A stretch of DNA of 64,000 nt, taken from contig NZ_LT907978.1 in the NCBI RefSeq assembly GCF_900209925.1, forward strand, positions 666,001-730,000, given 5' to 3'. This document shows positions 1 to 60,708 of the stretch, in pieces. Position numbers and translations under genes: made by a program. Source of the stretch: Anaerobutyricum hallii (GTDB taxonomy: Bacteria; Bacillota; Clostridia; Lachnospirales; Lachnospiraceae). Position 1 is the stretch's first letter. Every line of letters begins with the position of its first letter. The notes below the pieces were generated by a model, which saw only the letters and a program-made list of their open reading frames with translations, did not search any database and was not told the origin of the DNA.

Positions 1-966
1 CGAACACCGATTCCTCTGATGACAGGAACAGATTTTGAGGGGATATCACGTGTCATAGAAAAACAAACAGGAATTCCTGTATTCTACTTTCCGACAAGTG
101 GAATGCATACCTATGTAAAGGGAGCAGGAATGGCAATGGAAACAATCGCAAGAGAACTTGTGCCAGCAGGTAGGAAATCTGTAAAAGAAAGAAAAAACAA
201 GCAGGAGAATCCATTGAAAATCAATATTCTAGGAGCAACTCCGCTTGATTTTTCCATAAACTCTACCTTAGATTCTATAAAAGAATTTCTAAGCCGACAT
301 TTTGAGATTATCAGTACTTTTGCTATGGGAAGCTCTATAGAAGACATACAAAGAGCAGGAGAAGCAGACATAAATCTTGTCATCTCATCTGTTGGAGTTT
401 TGGCGGCAAAAGCATTAGAAGAACGTTTTCATACCCCATATGTTATTGGTACACCAATCATTGGGTTTGAAAATGTATTAGCTGAAAAATTAATAGAATC
501 CGCCTGGACAAAAAAGTCACAGACAGCCTATTTTAGTGTTTTACAAAAAGCACACAAAAAAGATACAGCTAATTTTACAACAATACAAAATACAGAAGCT
601 GTTTCTAATTTAAATAAAATAAAAAGACTAACAGAAACAATAGAAAAAAATAAAGTCAGCGGTAACGTTTATATTATCGGTGAATCTGTTATATCCCAGT
701 CATTAAAAGCGGCACTGGCATTACGATACGGAATAGAAGCCACTGTAATCTGTCCGCTTGAGACAGAACCGGAATATACAGAGAAAGATGTCTTACTCCT
801 TTCTTCCGAGGAAGACATCAAAGAAGCAATAATGGATGCCGACACCGTAATTGCCGACCCAATCTATAAAACAATCTGTTCCGAAAAAGTAAATTTTGTG
901 GCAATGCCACACGAAGCATACTCAGGAAGAATCTACAGAAAAGAAGTTTGTGATTTTATTCATTGA
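1..966 (+). CDS. Nitrogenase component 1-like oxidoreductase, 3' part
   Basis: The reading frame is open from base 1, so the gene begins outside the window; 321 residues are visible. The visible part resembles the NifD/NifK/NifE superfamily (Oxidored_nitro): a TGIPVFYFPTSGMHTY segment, then Rossmann-like repeats with glycine-rich turns (NILGATPLDFS, VYIIGESVISQSL). No other nitrogenase gene is seen here, so nitrogen fixation is not implied. Such stand-alone homologues occur in anaerobes next to NifH-like ATPases and can serve other reductive or assembly roles. The N-terminal cofactor-binding cysteines would lie upstream, so the exact function stays open. A palindrome follows the stop directly. 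Confidence 0.6.
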   Translation, partial: RTPIPLMTGTDFEGISRVIEKQTGIPVFYFPTSGMHTYVKGAGMAMETIARELVPAGRKSVKERKNKQENPLKINILGATPLDFSINSTLDSIKEFLSRHFEIISTFAMGSSIEDIQRAGEADINLVISSVGVLAAKALEERFHTPYVIGTPIIGFENVLAEKLIESAWTKKSQTAYFSVLQKAHKKDTANFTTIQNTEAVSNLNKIKRLTETIEKNKVSGNVYIIGESVISQSLKAALALRYGIEATVICPLETEPEYTEKDVLLLSSEEDIKEAIMDADTVIADPIYKTICSEKVNFVAMPHEAYSGRIYRKEVCDFIH

Positions 967-970
967 GAGA

Positions 971-1098
971 AACAGACGAAAAAAGAAATATTGCCATATC
1001 CCATCTGCTCTGTAGTCGCTGTGTTTAAGATGCTTGTCCGCATCTTAGACACGCTCCGAAGCCGCATCTGGGATATGGCAATATTTCTTTTTTCTGTT
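971..1098. repeat. Long nested palindrome, family A copy 1
   Basis: The left arm (971-1003) begins AACAGACGAA and pairs over about 30 bp with the right arm (1069-1098), which ends TTCTGTT. The left end carries an extra ACG absent from the right. Inside lies TAGTCGCT, a hairpin (TAAGATGC 1026-1033 with GCATCTTA 1040-1047), then GCTCCGA. The same order occurs at 59981-60119. The A-rich left arm and T-rich right arm could also end transcription of the upstream gene. Confidence 0.75.
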
Positions 1099-1107
1099 TT
1101 TTGGCAG

Positions 1108-1340
1108 GATAAGGGGGAGAAGTCAGAAGTCTTCTACTTGCTCGGAAGATGTATCGTCCAGACGATTATGTTCTTTCTTTAACGAGTAGAAAAGAAAAAG
1201 GGCTTATCATCAGTGAAACTTGAAAAAAGTCAGCATAGTGGAGAGAGCATCGCAACTGTAATGTGAGAGCGGGTAAATAAAATTCCATGACAGAGATATC
1301 TTCCGAGCAAGTAGTAGTCTTCTGACTTCTTCCCCTTATC
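1108..1340. repeat. Long nested palindrome, family A copy 2
   Basis: A left arm at 1108-1150 pairs with 1298-1340 over about 43 bp with only a few mismatches (for example CTTGCTCGGAAGAT with ATCTTCCGAGCAAG). The interior carries GCAACTGTAATGTGAGAGC at 1252-1270, identical to 1407-1425 in the next copy. There is no credible gene inside. Confidence 0.7.
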
Positions 1341-1379
1341 TCCCCAAAGACTATTGAATTCATTCACGTGGAGCCAACA

Positions 1380-1507
1380 AACAGAAAATAAAAAGAATAG
1401 ACCATTGCAACTGTAATGTGAGAGCAAGTAAAAATGCCGAACAGGCATTTTCTACGCAGTGATATCTTTACAGTTGCAATGGTCTATTCTTTTTATTTTC
1501 GTCTGTT
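1380..1507. repeat. Long nested palindrome, family A copy 3
   Basis: The arms at 1380-1416 and 1468-1507 pair almost perfectly over about 37 bp (for example GACCATTGCAACTG with CAGTTGCAATGGTC). The right end carries an extra CGT (TTTTCGTCTGTT) relative to the left AACAGAAAA. The core hairpin AAAATGCC-GAACA-GGCATTTT at 1430-1450 lies in a 30-nt stretch (1427-1456) that is identical to 56773-56802. Together, copies 1 to 3 fill most of the 645-base gap before the next gene. Confidence 0.8.
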
Positions 1508-1536
1508 CCCTAATGAATTAAATAGTAAATCATCAC

Positions 1537-4119: not shown

Positions 4120-4223
4120 AAAAACAGCATAACAGCGCATTTGTAAAGACAGTCGCAGGTAGAAAATACTTCGTTGTATTTTTATTTACTCTGATGTTAC
4201 ACATACGCTGCTATGCTGTTTTT
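4120..4223. repeat. Long nested palindrome, family A copy 4
   Basis: Arms AAAAACAGCATAACAGCG (4120-4137) and CGCTGCTATGCTGTTTTT (4206-4223) pair with one mismatch. The core at about 4149-4197, with GTAGAAAATAC-loop-GTATTTTTATTTAC, matches the core of copies 3 and 6 read on the opposite strand. It lies between two convergent genes and probably ends transcription in both directions. Confidence 0.75.
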
Positions 4224-5166: not shown

Positions 5167-5226
5167 ATGTACTTTCAGAGGAAGATTTTTTCGCAAGATG
5201 AAGCACAAAAGATTCCGGGAGTACAT
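5167..5226. repeat. Short palindrome with GTAC ends, family B copy 1
   Basis: This 60-bp element begins ATGTACTTTCAGAGGAAGA and ends AAGATTCCGGGAGTACAT, a diverged version of the element at 43040-43096. It lies in the 5' leader just ahead of the Shine-Dalgarno sequence AGGAGGG (5238-5243). Confidence 0.6.
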
Positions 5227-18178: not shown

Positions 18179-20224
18179 ATGGCAAAAGAAAACGGCTTTT
18201 TGCCCATCAATAAAAAAGAAATGAGAGAACGAGGCTGGAAGCAGGCAGATTTTGTTTATGTTTGTGGAGATGCTTATGTAGATCATCCTTCTTTTGGAGC
18301 AGCAATCATTACGAGGCTTTTAGAAGATGCAGGATATAAGGTCGCATTTATCGCACAGCCAGATTGGAACGATGAGAACAGTATTGCGGTTTGTGGAGAA
18401 CCAAGACTGGCATTTATCGTGTCAGCCGGCAATATGGATTCCATGGTGAATCATTATACTTCGTTTAAAAAGAGAAGGCATCAGGATGCGTATACACCGG
18501 GAGGCGGTTTTTCCGGAAGACCGAACCGGCCAACCATTGTATACAGCAATCTGATTCGAAAGACGTATAAAAAGACGCCGATTTTGCTGGGAGGAATTGA
18601 AGCGTCCTTAAGAAGAATGGCGCATTATGATTATTGGAGTGATAAAGTAAAGCGTTCTGTTTTATTGGATTCTGGTGCAGATCTGCTTATGTACGGAATG
18701 GGAGAGCATTCGATTCTTGAAATCGCGGAGGCATTGGATTCAGGAATAGACGTGCATGATATTACGTATGTCAGAGGAACTGTTTTTAAATGTAAAGACT
18801 TAGAAGAACTTTCCTGCGAATATGAATTGCTGCCATCTTATGAGGAAATCACAGAATCAAAAGAAACATTTGCCAGAAGTTATTATCAGCAATATATTAA
18901 CACAGATGCGATTACTGCAAAGACATTAGTAGAACCTTACAAGAAAAAGGAATATCTTGTGCAGAATCCGCCGTCATTGCCTCTTACGGTAGAGGAGATG
19001 GATCATGTATACGAACTGCCGTATATGAGAAAGTGGCATCCTTCGTATGATAAGCTTGGCGGGGTTCCCGCATTGAAGGAGATTAAGTTCTCTCTTACAA
19101 GTAACAGGGGCTGCTTTGGAGGCTGCAGTTTTTGTGCATTAACTTTCCATCAGGGAAGAAGAATTCAGATAAGAAGCCAGGAATCTATTTTAAAAGAAGC
19201 AGAGATTTTGATTAAAGATCCGGAATTTAAAGGTTATATTCATGATGTAGGAGGACCAACGGCAGATTTTCGTCATACGGCTTGTGAAAAACAGTTGAAA
19301 TATGGAGTCTGTACGAATAAACAATGTCTGTTTCCAAAGCCGTGTGCGAACATGAACGCAGATCATGGAGACTATATTACACTTCTTCGTCGTTTGAGGG
19401 CACTGCCGGGAGTAAAGAAAGTATTTATTCGCTCAGGAATCCGTTTTGATTATGTGCTGGCAGATAAAAAGGATCATTTCTTAGAAGAACTTTGTAAATA
19501 TCATGTCAGCGGGCAGCTCAAAGTTGCTCCGGAGCATATTTGTGACAGTGTTTTACGACTTATGGGCAAGCCTTCAAATCACGTGTATGAACAGTTTGCA
19601 AGAGAATATCGAAATATGAATAAAAAGCTGGGAAAGAAGCAGTATATGGTTCCGTATTTAATGTCTTCCCATCCGGGATCTCATTTAAAAGAAGCGATTG
19701 CTTTAGCAGAATATATTCGTGATCTTGGATATATGCCGGAACAGGTACAGGATTTTTATCCGACCCCGGGAACAATTTCTACATGCATGTATTATACAGG
19801 TTTCGATCCACGAACGATGGAGAAAGTCTATGTTCCGGTAAGTTTAAAAGAAAAACAGATGCAGAGGGCATTAATTCAGTATCGGAATCCGGAAAATTAT
19901 GATATTGTAAAAGCAGCATTGATTCAAGGTGGCAGAGAAGATCTGATCGGTTTTGATGAGCATTGCCTGATTCCGCCAAGAAAGATGGGAAAGAACTATC
20001 ATCCAGCACAGAAACATTCTGTGGAGAAAAACAATGCTTTTAAGACAGACAAATTTAAAACAGACAGGTTTAAAACAGAAAAATCTAAAACAGAAAAATC
20101 TAAAATAGAAAGAGCTAAAGCAGACAGATTTAAAACAGACAGAGCTTCCGGGAAGGAAGAAGGCAGAGGAAAGGCAAAGAAGAAGACGATCCGTAACGTT
20201 CATAAAAAGAAGAAGCGTGGATAG
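18179..20224 (+). CDS. YgiQ-family radical SAM protein
   Basis: This 681-residue protein has an N-terminal cobalamin-binding-like UPF0313 domain and a radical SAM core with the cluster motif RGCFGGCSFCA (three Cys, about residues 312-322). The family's reaction is not established. After about residue 615 there is a lysine-rich, imperfectly repeated tail built of (F/S)KT(D/E)(K/R) units. The next gene begins 11 bases after the stop, so they are probably one operon. Confidence 0.88.
   Translation: MAKENGFLPINKKEMRERGWKQADFVYVCGDAYVDHPSFGAAIITRLLEDAGYKVAFIAQPDWNDENSIAVCGEPRLAFIVSAGNMDSMVNHYTSFKKRRHQDAYTPGGGFSGRPNRPTIVYSNLIRKTYKKTPILLGGIEASLRRMAHYDYWSDKVKRSVLLDSGADLLMYGMGEHSILEIAEALDSGIDVHDITYVRGTVFKCKDLEELSCEYELLPSYEEITESKETFARSYYQQYINTDAITAKTLVEPYKKKEYLVQNPPSLPLTVEEMDHVYELPYMRKWHPSYDKLGGVPALKEIKFSLTSNRGCFGGCSFCALTFHQGRRIQIRSQESILKEAEILIKDPEFKGYIHDVGGPTADFRHTACEKQLKYGVCTNKQCLFPKPCANMNADHGDYITLLRRLRALPGVKKVFIRSGIRFDYVLADKKDHFLEELCKYHVSGQLKVAPEHICDSVLRLMGKPSNHVYEQFAREYRNMNKKLGKKQYMVPYLMSSHPGSHLKEAIALAEYIRDLGYMPEQVQDFYPTPGTISTCMYYTGFDPRTMEKVYVPVSLKEKQMQRALIQYRNPENYDIVKAALIQGGREDLIGFDEHCLIPPRKMGKNYHPAQKHSVEKNNAFKTDKFKTDRFKTEKSKTEKSKIERAKADRFKTDRASGKEEGRGKAKKKTIRNVHKKKKRG
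20038..20148 (+). repeat. Tandem repeat encoding the YgiQ C-terminal tail
   Basis: Degenerate 15-base units such as TTTAAAACAGACAGG and TCTAAAACAGAAAAA repeat about seven times and keep the frame. The unit number could vary between strains. Confidence 0.7.
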
Positions 20225-56196: not shown

Positions 56197-56267
56197 AATA
56201 CTAATTTGCTGGGGGCACAGACGCCGCTTTAGTAGAAGATATTGAGCTGAATTGTAGTTAGTCTTCT

Positions 56268-56434
56268 AAAGAAAAAAAGAATTGTTATAAGTTAGATTTT
56301 GTTCCATTGCGCTAAGCATTCCATTCTGCCCAGAAAAACAGGAACTTGGGAAAAACGAGTCCCAAGTTCCTATGGTCAGAATTCCACAGCGCAAAGTCAC
56401 AAAATACAATACTTATAACAATTCTTTTTTCTTT
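56268..56434. repeat. Long nested palindrome, family A-like copy 5
   Basis: The arms at 56268-56292 and 56411-56434 (GAATTGTTATAAGT with ACTTATAACAATTC) enclose a second stem (CATTGCGCT with AGCGCAAAG) and a perfect inner hairpin AGGAACTTGGGA/TCCCAAGTTCCT (56340-56371). Outer segments near 56217 and 56480 (GCCGCT, CTGAATTG) also pair. The 671-base gap between sigE and sigG holds only these palindromes; no gene is supported. Confidence 0.7.
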
Positions 56435-56730
56435 ATCATTAGGTTTCCTTCAATTCAGCATAAAATTTTGTTTCAGCGGCTGTCTATTTTTGATAACAAA
56501 TTAGTAATTTATGTTGGAAAGAGAGGGGGATTCTCCAAAAGATGATGTGAGCTAACCAGAGAAAAATTTTTCATAAGGTAAGAGTAGGTAAATGTAATTT
56601 TTATACACCCAAATAAGAAAGTGTCTTCTTTGGGTGATGTTCCTTCTAATGAAAACCATAGCCTTCTGGGCAATCCCCTTATTCTTCCTCAAATCCAAAT
56701 ACTAATTTCCTTCTGGAGCCAAAAAGCAGA

Positions 56731-56846
56731 AAACCAGAAATTTGAGATAGAAGAAAAAGTGATGTCGGAGCGAGTAAAAATGCCGAACAGGCATTTTCTA
56801 CGAAGCGACTATCTTCACTTTTTCTTCTATCTCAAATTTCTGGTTT
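56731..56846. repeat. Long nested palindrome, family A copy 6
   Basis: The arms at 56731-56762 and 56815-56846 pair perfectly over 32 bp (for example TTTGAGATAGAAG with CTTCTATCTCAAA). The core hairpin AAAATGCC-GAACA-GGCATTTT (56777-56797) lies in 30 nt identical to 1427-1456. Beyond the right arm TTTTCGTTTC carries a CGT not matched on the left. Confidence 0.8.
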
Positions 56847-56867
56847 TCGTTTCTTTAGCCCTTCAAA

Positions 56868-57650
56868 TTAGTATTTTTCAATAAAATTTCTTATGGATTT
56901 CAGTGCATTTTTTTCAAGGCGGCTGACTTGCGCCTGCGATATACTGATTTCGTTTGCAACTTCTGTCTGGGTTTTTCCTTCAAAAAAACGTTTTTTAATA
57001 ATATGATATTCCCGACCCGGAAGTTGATTCATTGCTTCCTGGAGGGAGAGGTGCTCTACCCAGGTTTCTTCTTTGTTCTTTTTGTCGCAGATTTGATCCA
57101 TTAGAAAAAGTGGATCGTTTCCATCTTGATAGACCGGTTCAAATAAAGACATGGGTGTGGCAATAGCATCAAGAGCGTAAATGATATCTTCTTCAGAAAT
57201 ATCTGTTTCTTTTGCAATTTCTTCTATCGTAGGTGTACGATTCATAGATTTTGTGAGCTGTTCTTTTGCATAAATCGCTTTGTAAGCGGTGTCCCGCAAA
57301 GAACGGCTGACCCGTATGCTGTTATTATCTCGAAGATAGCGTCTTACTTCTCCAAGAATCATGGGTACAGCATAAGTGGAAAATTTAACATCTAAACTAC
57401 GGTCGAAATTATCCACCGCTTTCATAAGACCGATACAGCCAACTTGAAACAGATCATCAGCATGTTCATGGTTATTAGAAAAACGTTGAATGACACTTAA
57501 AACGAGGCGAAGGTTCCCTTTTACATATTTTTCGCGAGCCGCTTTATCGCCGCGTTCAATTCGTAGAAAAAGATTTTCTTTTTCTTCATTGGACAGAAGT
57601 GGCAGCTCTGAAGTATTTACTCCGCAGATTTCAACTTTGTTTAAAAACAT
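56868..57650 (-). CDS. sigG: RNA polymerase sigma-G factor (forespore sporulation)
   Basis: This 260-residue late forespore sigma factor opens MFLNKVEICGVNTSELPLLS, almost the sigma-G consensus and the segment bound by its anti-sigma factors. Region 2 reads NNHEHADDLFQVGCIGLMKAVDNFD, and region 4 TQTEVANEISISQAQVSRLEKNAL. The start is the ATG whose complement is at 57648-57650, with GGGAGG upstream on the minus strand. It faces sigE, whereas in Bacillus the two are in tandem. Confidence 0.96.
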   Translation of the reverse strand: MFLNKVEICGVNTSELPLLSNEEKENLFLRIERGDKAAREKYVKGNLRLVLSVIQRFSNNHEHADDLFQVGCIGLMKAVDNFDRSLDVKFSTYAVPMILGEVRRYLRDNNSIRVSRSLRDTAYKAIYAKEQLTKSMNRTPTIEEIAKETDISEEDIIYALDAIATPMSLFEPVYQDGNDPLFLMDQICDKKNKEETWVEHLSLQEAMNQLPGREYHIIKKRFFEGKTQTEVANEISISQAQVSRLEKNALKSIRNFIEKY

Positions 57651-59951: not shown

Positions 59952-59980
59952 AGCTTGAATTGCCGCAGGCAAGGTAGACG

Positions 59981-60119
59981 AAACAGACGAACCCAGAAAG
60001 AAAAATAAAGCATATTTGTGGCTTTAGTCGCTACAGGTTGAATGTTCGCTTAACCGCTCGCATTCATCCTTTGCTCCGAGGTCACAAATATGTTTTATTT
60101 TTCTTTCTGGGTTCTGTTT
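59981..60119. repeat. Long nested palindrome, family A copy 7
   Basis: The left arm (59981-60022) begins AAACAGACGAACCCAGAAAG, and the right arm (60081-60119) ends CTTTCTGGGTTCTGTTT, so the ACG is again on one side only. The core has TTTAGTCGCT, a hairpin (GAATG/CATTC) and GCTCCGAG, as in copy 1. GGTTGAATGTTCGCTT at 60036-60051 recurs inverted at 60326-60341. The 757-base gap from sstT to the XRE gene holds four such palindromes and no gene. Confidence 0.8.
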
Positions 60120-60261
60120 GTTGGCCGTCTATGCAAACGCAGAATTTATCAGAGTTCCTATTTCTCCTGTCCCCATTCCCAACCCATTCCGCAAGTGTCT
60201 AGTCAGTATATAGTATCGAAGCAAAACTTAAATTTCGATTTCACTCCAACAGCCAAAGACA

Positions 60262-60388
60262 GCCTCCGAAGCGAGCCGATAGCCTATATTTGTGGCCTTA
60301 GAGCAAGGATTGAATGTGAGCATGGAAGCGAACATTCAACCCGCAGTGATAGAGTCACAAATATAGGCTATCGGCTCGCTTCGGAGGC
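60262..60388. repeat. Long nested palindrome, family A copy 8
   Basis: The arms at 60262-60294 and 60356-60388 pair perfectly over 33 bp (CTCCGAAGCGAGCCGATAG with CTATCGGCTCGCTTCGGAG). The core holds GAGCAAGG, a hairpin (TTGAATGT/ACATTCAA) and CGCAGTGATAGAG, which matches the GAGCAAG...CGCAGTGATA order of copy 3. Confidence 0.8.
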
Positions 60389-60488
60389 GTCTCTTTGCCT
60401 GCGGCAAATTCGAAATTAATTCCCTCTTGACTAGCACACTTCTTTCTGCCATAATAGCCTTTGGAAGTTTAACTATACTAAACTTTAA

Positions 60489-60581
60489 GTTTATCTCAGT
60501 CGAGAAGGCTCTCACATCTTTCAGGTGGTGAGTGACAGCAAATTTGTCTCAGTGGGAGTCCAATCTTCGACTGAGATAAAC
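60489..60581. repeat. Palindrome, family A-like copy 9
   Basis: GTTTATCTCAGTCGA (60489-60503) pairs perfectly with TCGACTGAGATAAAC (60567-60581). The interior is poorly paired. Confidence 0.65.
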
Positions 60582-60584
60582 GCT

Positions 60585-60659
60585 CCGCGAGGATGCGCAG
60601 TGATTCTGTAAAGAATATGTCAGCTTACGCTGACCAGAATCACGCGCCAAGTCTCGCGG
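60585..60659. repeat. Palindrome, family A-like copy 10
   Basis: CCGCGAG...CGCAGTGATTCTG on the left pairs with CAGAATCACGCG...CTCGCGG on the right, with an inner TCAGC-TTACGCTGA hairpin. The right end overlaps the 26-bp sequence shared with 15009-15034. It lies 49 bases ahead of the XRE-cupin gene, so it may influence its transcription. Confidence 0.65.
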
Positions 60660-60708
60660 CTGCTCGACTTGAATATTACATAAATAGAAAGGTGTGAAGT
60701 CATGAATC

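Follow-up and report, generated by a model that had tools for sequence, protein, structure and literature searches.

REP-like repeats are known mainly from Proteobacteria, and the traits ascribed to REPs, BIMEs, and REPINs include arrangement as inverted pairs, location at gene ends, the supply of stop codons, and families limited to a lineage (as set out in PMC3733652; for REPINs, see PMC3116915). Here, a window of 64,000 nucleotides (positions 666001-730000 of a genome that consists of a single contig of 3,515,670 bases, termed the window genome) was analyzed, in which long hairpins of a comparable kind occur. The window family resembles REPs, BIMEs, and REPINs in its high copy number (at least 150, against a criterion of more than 100), its palindromic units in inverted pairs, its limitation to species, its position between convergent and tandem genes near the 3′ ends of ORFs, and element ends that supply stop codons. 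In contrast to the 20- to 40-bp units of those systems, its units are mostly 115 to 129 nt long, and no Y1 (RAYT) gene flanked by its hairpins was found. Its host belongs to the Lachnospiraceae, and none of the terms “firmicutes,” “clostridi,” and “eubacterium” appears in the text of PMC3733652.

The family thus appears to work like a REPIN but is not filed here as a member, because its size and host, and the lack of a hairpin-flanked Y1 gene, set it apart. REPs of the CGTC type carry CGTC at the 5′ end, as in dRS3. The window family has CGTC and, in many copies, CCA at opposite hairpin ends, with CGTC forming the 3′ end, and exhibits arms of 26 to 34 bp plus a core, unlike the 8- to 9-bp stems of CGTC REPs; membership in that group was rejected on size and stem. 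The GTAG tag of REPs is absent, and the units are instead bounded by the frame NNCA|G...C|GTYT, exact in 143 of 160 window-genome hairpins. A search of the literature found no description of such repeats in Anaerobutyricum. We consider it likely that the hairpins are the units of an unusually large, mobile REP/REPIN-like repeat that acts as a gene-end element.

Results

Hairpins in the window

Six hairpins of the family are confirmed in the window (Table 1), with z-scores of -7.6 to -17.0 relative to shuffles in eight RNA folds covering the six sites. An earlier note on this DNA had listed seven copies; six are hairpins, while the site at 1108 proved to be the folded spacer between hairpins 978 and 1384. 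The 30-nt identity that it reported between 1427-1456 and 56773-56802 is present. The copy at 4120, said to carry the same core on the other strand, does possess a related core, but its sequence is not the same and the conserved frame is missing.

Table 1. Coordinates of the hairpins, composites, and adjoining features in the window
Feature	Position	Strand	Arms and pairing match	Remark
Composite 1, left outer end (degenerate terminal inverted repeat and GTC frame)	953..977	-		Upstream gene has its stop codon here; ORF 1-966 ends within
Hairpin, subfamily L	978..1094	- (core strand)	978-1008/1064-1094; 94%	
Composite 1 spacer, self-folded (1100-1155/1293-1348), between two hairpins	1095..1349			Partial R module 1244-1277
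R module inner end (ACTATTGAATTCATT...GGAGCCAACAAACA)	1350..1383	+		
Hairpin, subfamily R, conserved core inside perfect arms	1384..1500	+	1384-1416/1468-1500; 33 bp, 100%	
Composite 1, right outer end (GTCTGTT...AATGAATTAAATAGTAAA)	1501..1530	+		
Degenerate single hairpin, related core, without conserved frame	4120..4223	-	4120-4146/4197-4223; 89%	
Composite 2, terminal repeat AATACTAATTT / AAATTAGTATT, flanked by two convergent genes	56197..56876			Site empty in G024
Hairpin, subfamily K	56729..56848	+	56718-56762/56815-56859; 89%	
Composite 3, ends with GCCGCAGGC/GCCTGCGGC	59952..60419			A. hallii orthologous copy, arms changed
Hairpin, G-like subfamily (frequent in A. hallii)	59989..60114	-	59989-60020/60083-60114; 97%	
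Hairpin, G-like subfamily, 33-bp perfect arms	60262..60388	+	60262-60294/60356-60388; 100%	

Further repeats were observed in the same window. The left half of composite 2 is a different long hairpin (56273-56430), and this half has many near copies genome-wide. A separate folded repeat at 60489-60676 has copies at 632963-633159 (96%) and in A. hallii, and is missing at the orthologous A. hallii site. A short common sequence (AAAGACTCCGAGAGTACATT-like) occurs on both strands at 5208, 7936, 40468, and 43036, and six tandem copies at 15-nt spacing lie at 20041-20142.

Distribution of the family

A covariance model of the core was built from a seed of nine hairpins, six of them the window copies. 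All six were recovered at E ≤ 1.2e-12, as training sequences and hence not independently; the rest of the genome provided the independent test, and at least 150 matches, every one at E ≤ 1.7e-9, were obtained in the window genome. At least 150 were likewise obtained in A. hallii DSM 3353, whose genes flanking the window sites are mostly 80 to 86% identical to those of the window genome at the DNA level, which places the window in a sibling species of A. hallii; all hairpin copy numbers given here are lower bounds. The other 22 genus genomes searched yielded no match at E ≤ 0.01, placing the family in two of 24. The earlier proposal of a dispersed family is thus borne out, and the search of the genome and its relatives that it had recommended returned many extra copies in the window genome and A. 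hallii. DNA searches gave a similar picture within the window genome, with at least 39 near-full matches to the 1380 copy (itself included) at 80 to 100% identity among the best 40 of 163 candidates, and at least 43 matches to 966-1105 (self counted; 40 candidates scored).

Broader scans detected little beyond these two genomes. Across the bacterial family, two of 396 genomes matched (the window genome and A. hallii), and across the class two of 393 (the window genome and G638); in both scans the best 12 candidates per genome were scored, such that small copy numbers would escape. G638, from another family of the class, exhibited two weak model matches (L218 and L219, E 3.5e-4) in a stretch that has five copies there. 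Among named genomes of 84,980 species, from which the window genome was possibly left out, the core pattern identified 41 stretches, 35 from A. hallii and six single matches elsewhere; when the latter six were scanned for hairpins, five had none and the remaining one held a short, unrelated inverted repeat. In viral contigs, the R core had no match and the core pattern one, which lacks a hairpin. No Rfam 15 family reached its gathering score across the 64-kb window, and in a scan of eight loci only tRNAs reached the gathering cut-off. Subthreshold Rfam matches to miRNA and plastid families were put down to AT-rich hairpin noise.

Unit anatomy, composites, and the search for a mobilizing enzyme

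Inside the frame, arms of approximately 26 to 34 bp are followed by the core, in which GAGC lies opposite GYGA and which contains conserved internal loops, and by an apical stem (median hairpin length 117 nt, range 69-129, for 161 hairpins). Three subfamilies, L, R, and K, were distinguished in the window genome, and a G-like group is frequent in A. hallii. The arms had been described as copy-specific; they do change in a paired way, but they are common to the members of a subfamily, as reflected in the near-full matches to the 1380 copy. The earlier suggestion that a core inserts into existing terminator stems finds no support in this anatomy: the arms sit between the conserved frame on the outside and the core on the inside and therefore belong to the element, not to the target.

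Hairpins are commonly paired. An outward-facing inverted pair (-+) was present in 51 of 94 hairpin groups (47 exactly -+ and four more containing it), the +- arrangement in none of the 94, and the remaining groups were single or same-direction. Paired units form composites of 0.4 to 1.0 kb, consisting of two hairpins and a folded spacer, with terminal inverted repeats (for example, ACTATTTGATTCATT or AATACTAATTT) at the outer ends. The element is larger than the earlier note had it, which described neither these composites nor the arms common to a subfamily nor a constant orientation and spacing relative to stop codons. Near-identical composites occur at distant sites, with one pair approximately 604 kb apart exhibiting 95.7% identity over 623 nt and another approximately 1.5 Mb apart exhibiting 90.6% over 762 nt. 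As an observation outside the hairpins, L014 2303-2733 and L017 1607-2037 constitute a 431-nt duplicate at 99.3% identity, and no ORF of at least 60 aa covers the L014 copy.

Terminal inverted repeats of this kind at both outer ends, and between-copy similarity that stops about where they lie, are reminiscent of MITEs, as are the noncoding nature of the composites and their many copies near genes. Under this alternative, the composites would be nonautonomous remnants of DNA transposons with hairpin-bearing ends, on whose terminal inverted repeats a DDE-type transposase acts. Several features depart from it. Inspection by eye recognized no target-site duplication at composite ends, no parent transposon or autonomous copy was seen in the loci examined, the outer repeat varies by class while the hairpin core is retained, and two large hairpins lie inside. 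Genes located between hairpins were considered as autonomous elements and rejected, those of L090 (NUDIX) and L091 (CrcB) being ordinary genes. We regard a MITE origin as somewhat unlikely, although it is the strongest competitor to a REP/REPIN-like repeat.

Seven matches to Y1 (IS200-type) transposases were detected in the window genome, and in the stretches read none of the seven was flanked on both sides by hairpins. One lies approximately 1.1 kb from an L copy in L140 that forms a perfect palindrome (see below), and in A. hallii, where four of six Y1 loci were read, 356 nt separate a hairpin from the start of a related IS605-type transposase match (L147 1844-3807). Reading of the ORFs indicates that both of these hairpin-near matches belong to IS605-type elements with a TnpB-like gene. 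A Y1/RAYT mobilizer is accordingly unsupported, with no flanked gene among the seven window-genome matches or the four of six A. hallii loci, and no enzyme spreading the hairpins was identified in the loci examined. Separately, genes of the PD-(D/E)XK_2 nuclease family adjoin hairpins at L092 3151-3975 and L140 3086-3691.

Covariation of the arms

Variable arm positions form Watson-Crick pairs in 98.0% of cases in L (63 copies), 97.2% in R (38), and 98.2% in K (25), as compared to shuffled maxima of 75.2, 79.4, and 74.9%, respectively. Of the 24 pairs in the seed of nine sequences, 18 exhibited double-sided changes, with a covariation score of 0.617 versus 0.250 when shuffled. A conserved core with covarying arms, as first noted from the window copies, therefore holds for the subfamilies at large. 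Comparisons in which two distinct arms differed at exactly one position numbered 62; in 47 the difference was two-sided with pairing kept (17 transitions and 30 transversions), in 12 it was one-sided, and in three it was of another kind; these counts are not independent, because the arm pairs are related by descent. Across all arm pairs, approximately 83% of differences were two-sided with pairing kept and approximately 17% were not (the L row includes one core position, G-A). In 202 distinct hairpins, the arms were perfect in 142 and imperfect in 60, with mismatches at 104 of 6027 pairs and no excess of G-U (25) over A-C (26); the L/R/K copy set contained 10 G-U and seven A-C mismatches. One L copy (L140 2736-2851), its core mirrored as well, forms a perfect palindrome of 55 bp, which fits the arm copying considered below but could also stem from deletion between inverted copies. 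The outer foot and core are conserved, and the 5′ arm, in core orientation, is purine-rich in 161 of 161 hairpins (mean 0.72); parts of the hairpin are therefore under sequence constraint.

Two processes could maintain such pairing. In the first, the hairpin would be a structured RNA, either a 3′-UTR element or a bidirectional terminator, its stem kept by RNA selection alone and its dispersal old and passive. This account fits the strong covariation, the purine-rich 5′ arms, the conserved internal loops of the core, and the fixed orientation to the upstream gene described below. It fits poorly with mismatches that lack a G-U preference, with single-position differences that are mostly two-sided transversions without a G-U intermediate, with a window in which no Rfam family reaches its gathering score, and with a family confined to two of 24 genus genomes in which whole composites recur nearly identical at far sites. 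On this balance a structured RNA of passive dispersal appears unlikely, and more so than a MITE.

In the second process, one arm would be corrected from the other at the DNA level. Arm copying during replication has been described for hairpins, with two-sided changes that lack a G-U intermediate and perfect stems among its products (PMC8794818). The window family shares with those template-switch hairpins the two-sided changes, the dispensable G-U intermediate, and the perfect stems, but differs in being a dispersed bacterial repeat, while PMC8794818 deals with RNA genes. Predominantly two-sided changes, often transversions, without an excess of G-U favor such template switching over ordinary RNA-stem evolution. 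A balance of G-U and A-C mismatches is also expected if the hairpin is selected on both strands, and RNA-level selection is thus still compatible with the data.

Location at gene ends and orthologous sites

Genes were called by a simple ORF rule (at least 90 aa), leaving out any ORF that shared more than 40 to 60 nt with a hairpin, such that the hairpins were placed beside ORFs after prior removal of those overlapping them. With this convention, 96 neighborships of a hairpin and a stop codon at a distance of at most 60 nt were identified in 85 window-genome sources, most of them chosen for holding matches; 91 exhibited one orientation and five the opposite. Of the 91, all except one (at -7) lie 9 to 38 nt from the stop codon, which substantiates the gene-end location noted earlier. 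Both neighboring genes were called for 76 of 94 groups, being convergent in 30, tandem in 38, and divergent in eight.

A scan for intrinsic terminators across 900-1700, by a rule that requires a loop of 3 to 8 nt, detected none. The L and R arms have T-rich feet. The hairpins probably terminate transcription arriving from one side or from both. The terminator role proposed earlier is plausible: at one site, that of composite 3, the relative G024 carries a plain stem, an inverted repeat of 13 bp with a T run at its end.

Fourteen stretches from eight relatives (G004-G008, G021, G024, and G031) gave nothing at E ≤ 1 with the covariance model, while it identified five hairpins in two A. hallii stretches. 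A comparison of empty and filled orthologous sites, as suggested in the earlier note, showed that occupancy differs. The composite 2 site measures 676 nt in the window and 24 nt in G024, and A. hallii has a different composite there. Seven relatives were scanned at this site: G008 and G006 have a plain 12-bp inverted repeat, with an A/T run at its foot in G008 and not in G006, and the other five have none. A plain terminator of G031 at this site was considered and discarded after a scan for arms of at least 8 bp gave none. The site at 4120 measures 171 nt in the window versus 16 nt in G024, and A. hallii appears, by eye, to have an element end without a hairpin. At the composite 1 site, A. hallii has the same outer repeat but other hairpins, and G024 has no hairpin. 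At the composite 3 site, A. hallii holds the same element: 141 of 147 spacer positions agree with the window, while both arms of its left hairpin carry changes and its right hairpin has been lost by deletion.

Ordinary intrinsic terminators that are alike by chance would account for the location directly behind stop codons and for the plain inverted repeats that some relatives have there, but are a very improbable explanation of a frame and core common to at least 150 copies, of composites hundreds of bases long at 90 to 96% identity, and of the lack of any match in 22 of 24 genus genomes. Arms conserved at each site, immobility, and a lack of extra copies had been named earlier as the marks of such terminators, and none of the three was observed.

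Discussion

The reading of the hairpins as units of a large, mobile REP/REPIN-like gene-end element draws on observed copy number, frame, orientation, distance from stop codons, empty and filled sites, and near-identical composites at distant sites. In the mechanism we propose, the unit would be a hairpin, mostly 115 to 129 nt long, whose frame is fixed and whose core is conserved, whereas its arms vary. Units would pair outward in composites of approximately 0.4 to 1.0 kb with terminal inverted repeats and would settle right behind stop codons, there probably ending transcription. The two arms would stay identical through use of one as the template for the other when the DNA is replicated, and not through selection on an RNA stem alone.

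A more far-reaching version of this proposal is offered tentatively, at slightly less than an even chance. The covariation of the arms would arise mainly from replication, through template switching within the hairpin, rather than from RNA selection, and the family would represent a new, oversized REPIN-like class of Clostridia with a mobilizer beyond the enzymes identified. If this is true, a mobile bacterial repeat passes the covariation test for structured RNA, and the family constitutes a natural record of many correction events. If correction at the DNA level is what keeps the arms paired, covariation by itself would not prove that an RNA structure is under selection, a point of consequence for the discovery of noncoding RNAs.

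For the organism, the family would amount to a giant REP-like form that takes up many gene ends, in a genus of the human gut. With two carrier species set against many noncarriers, its gain, turnover, and function become testable.
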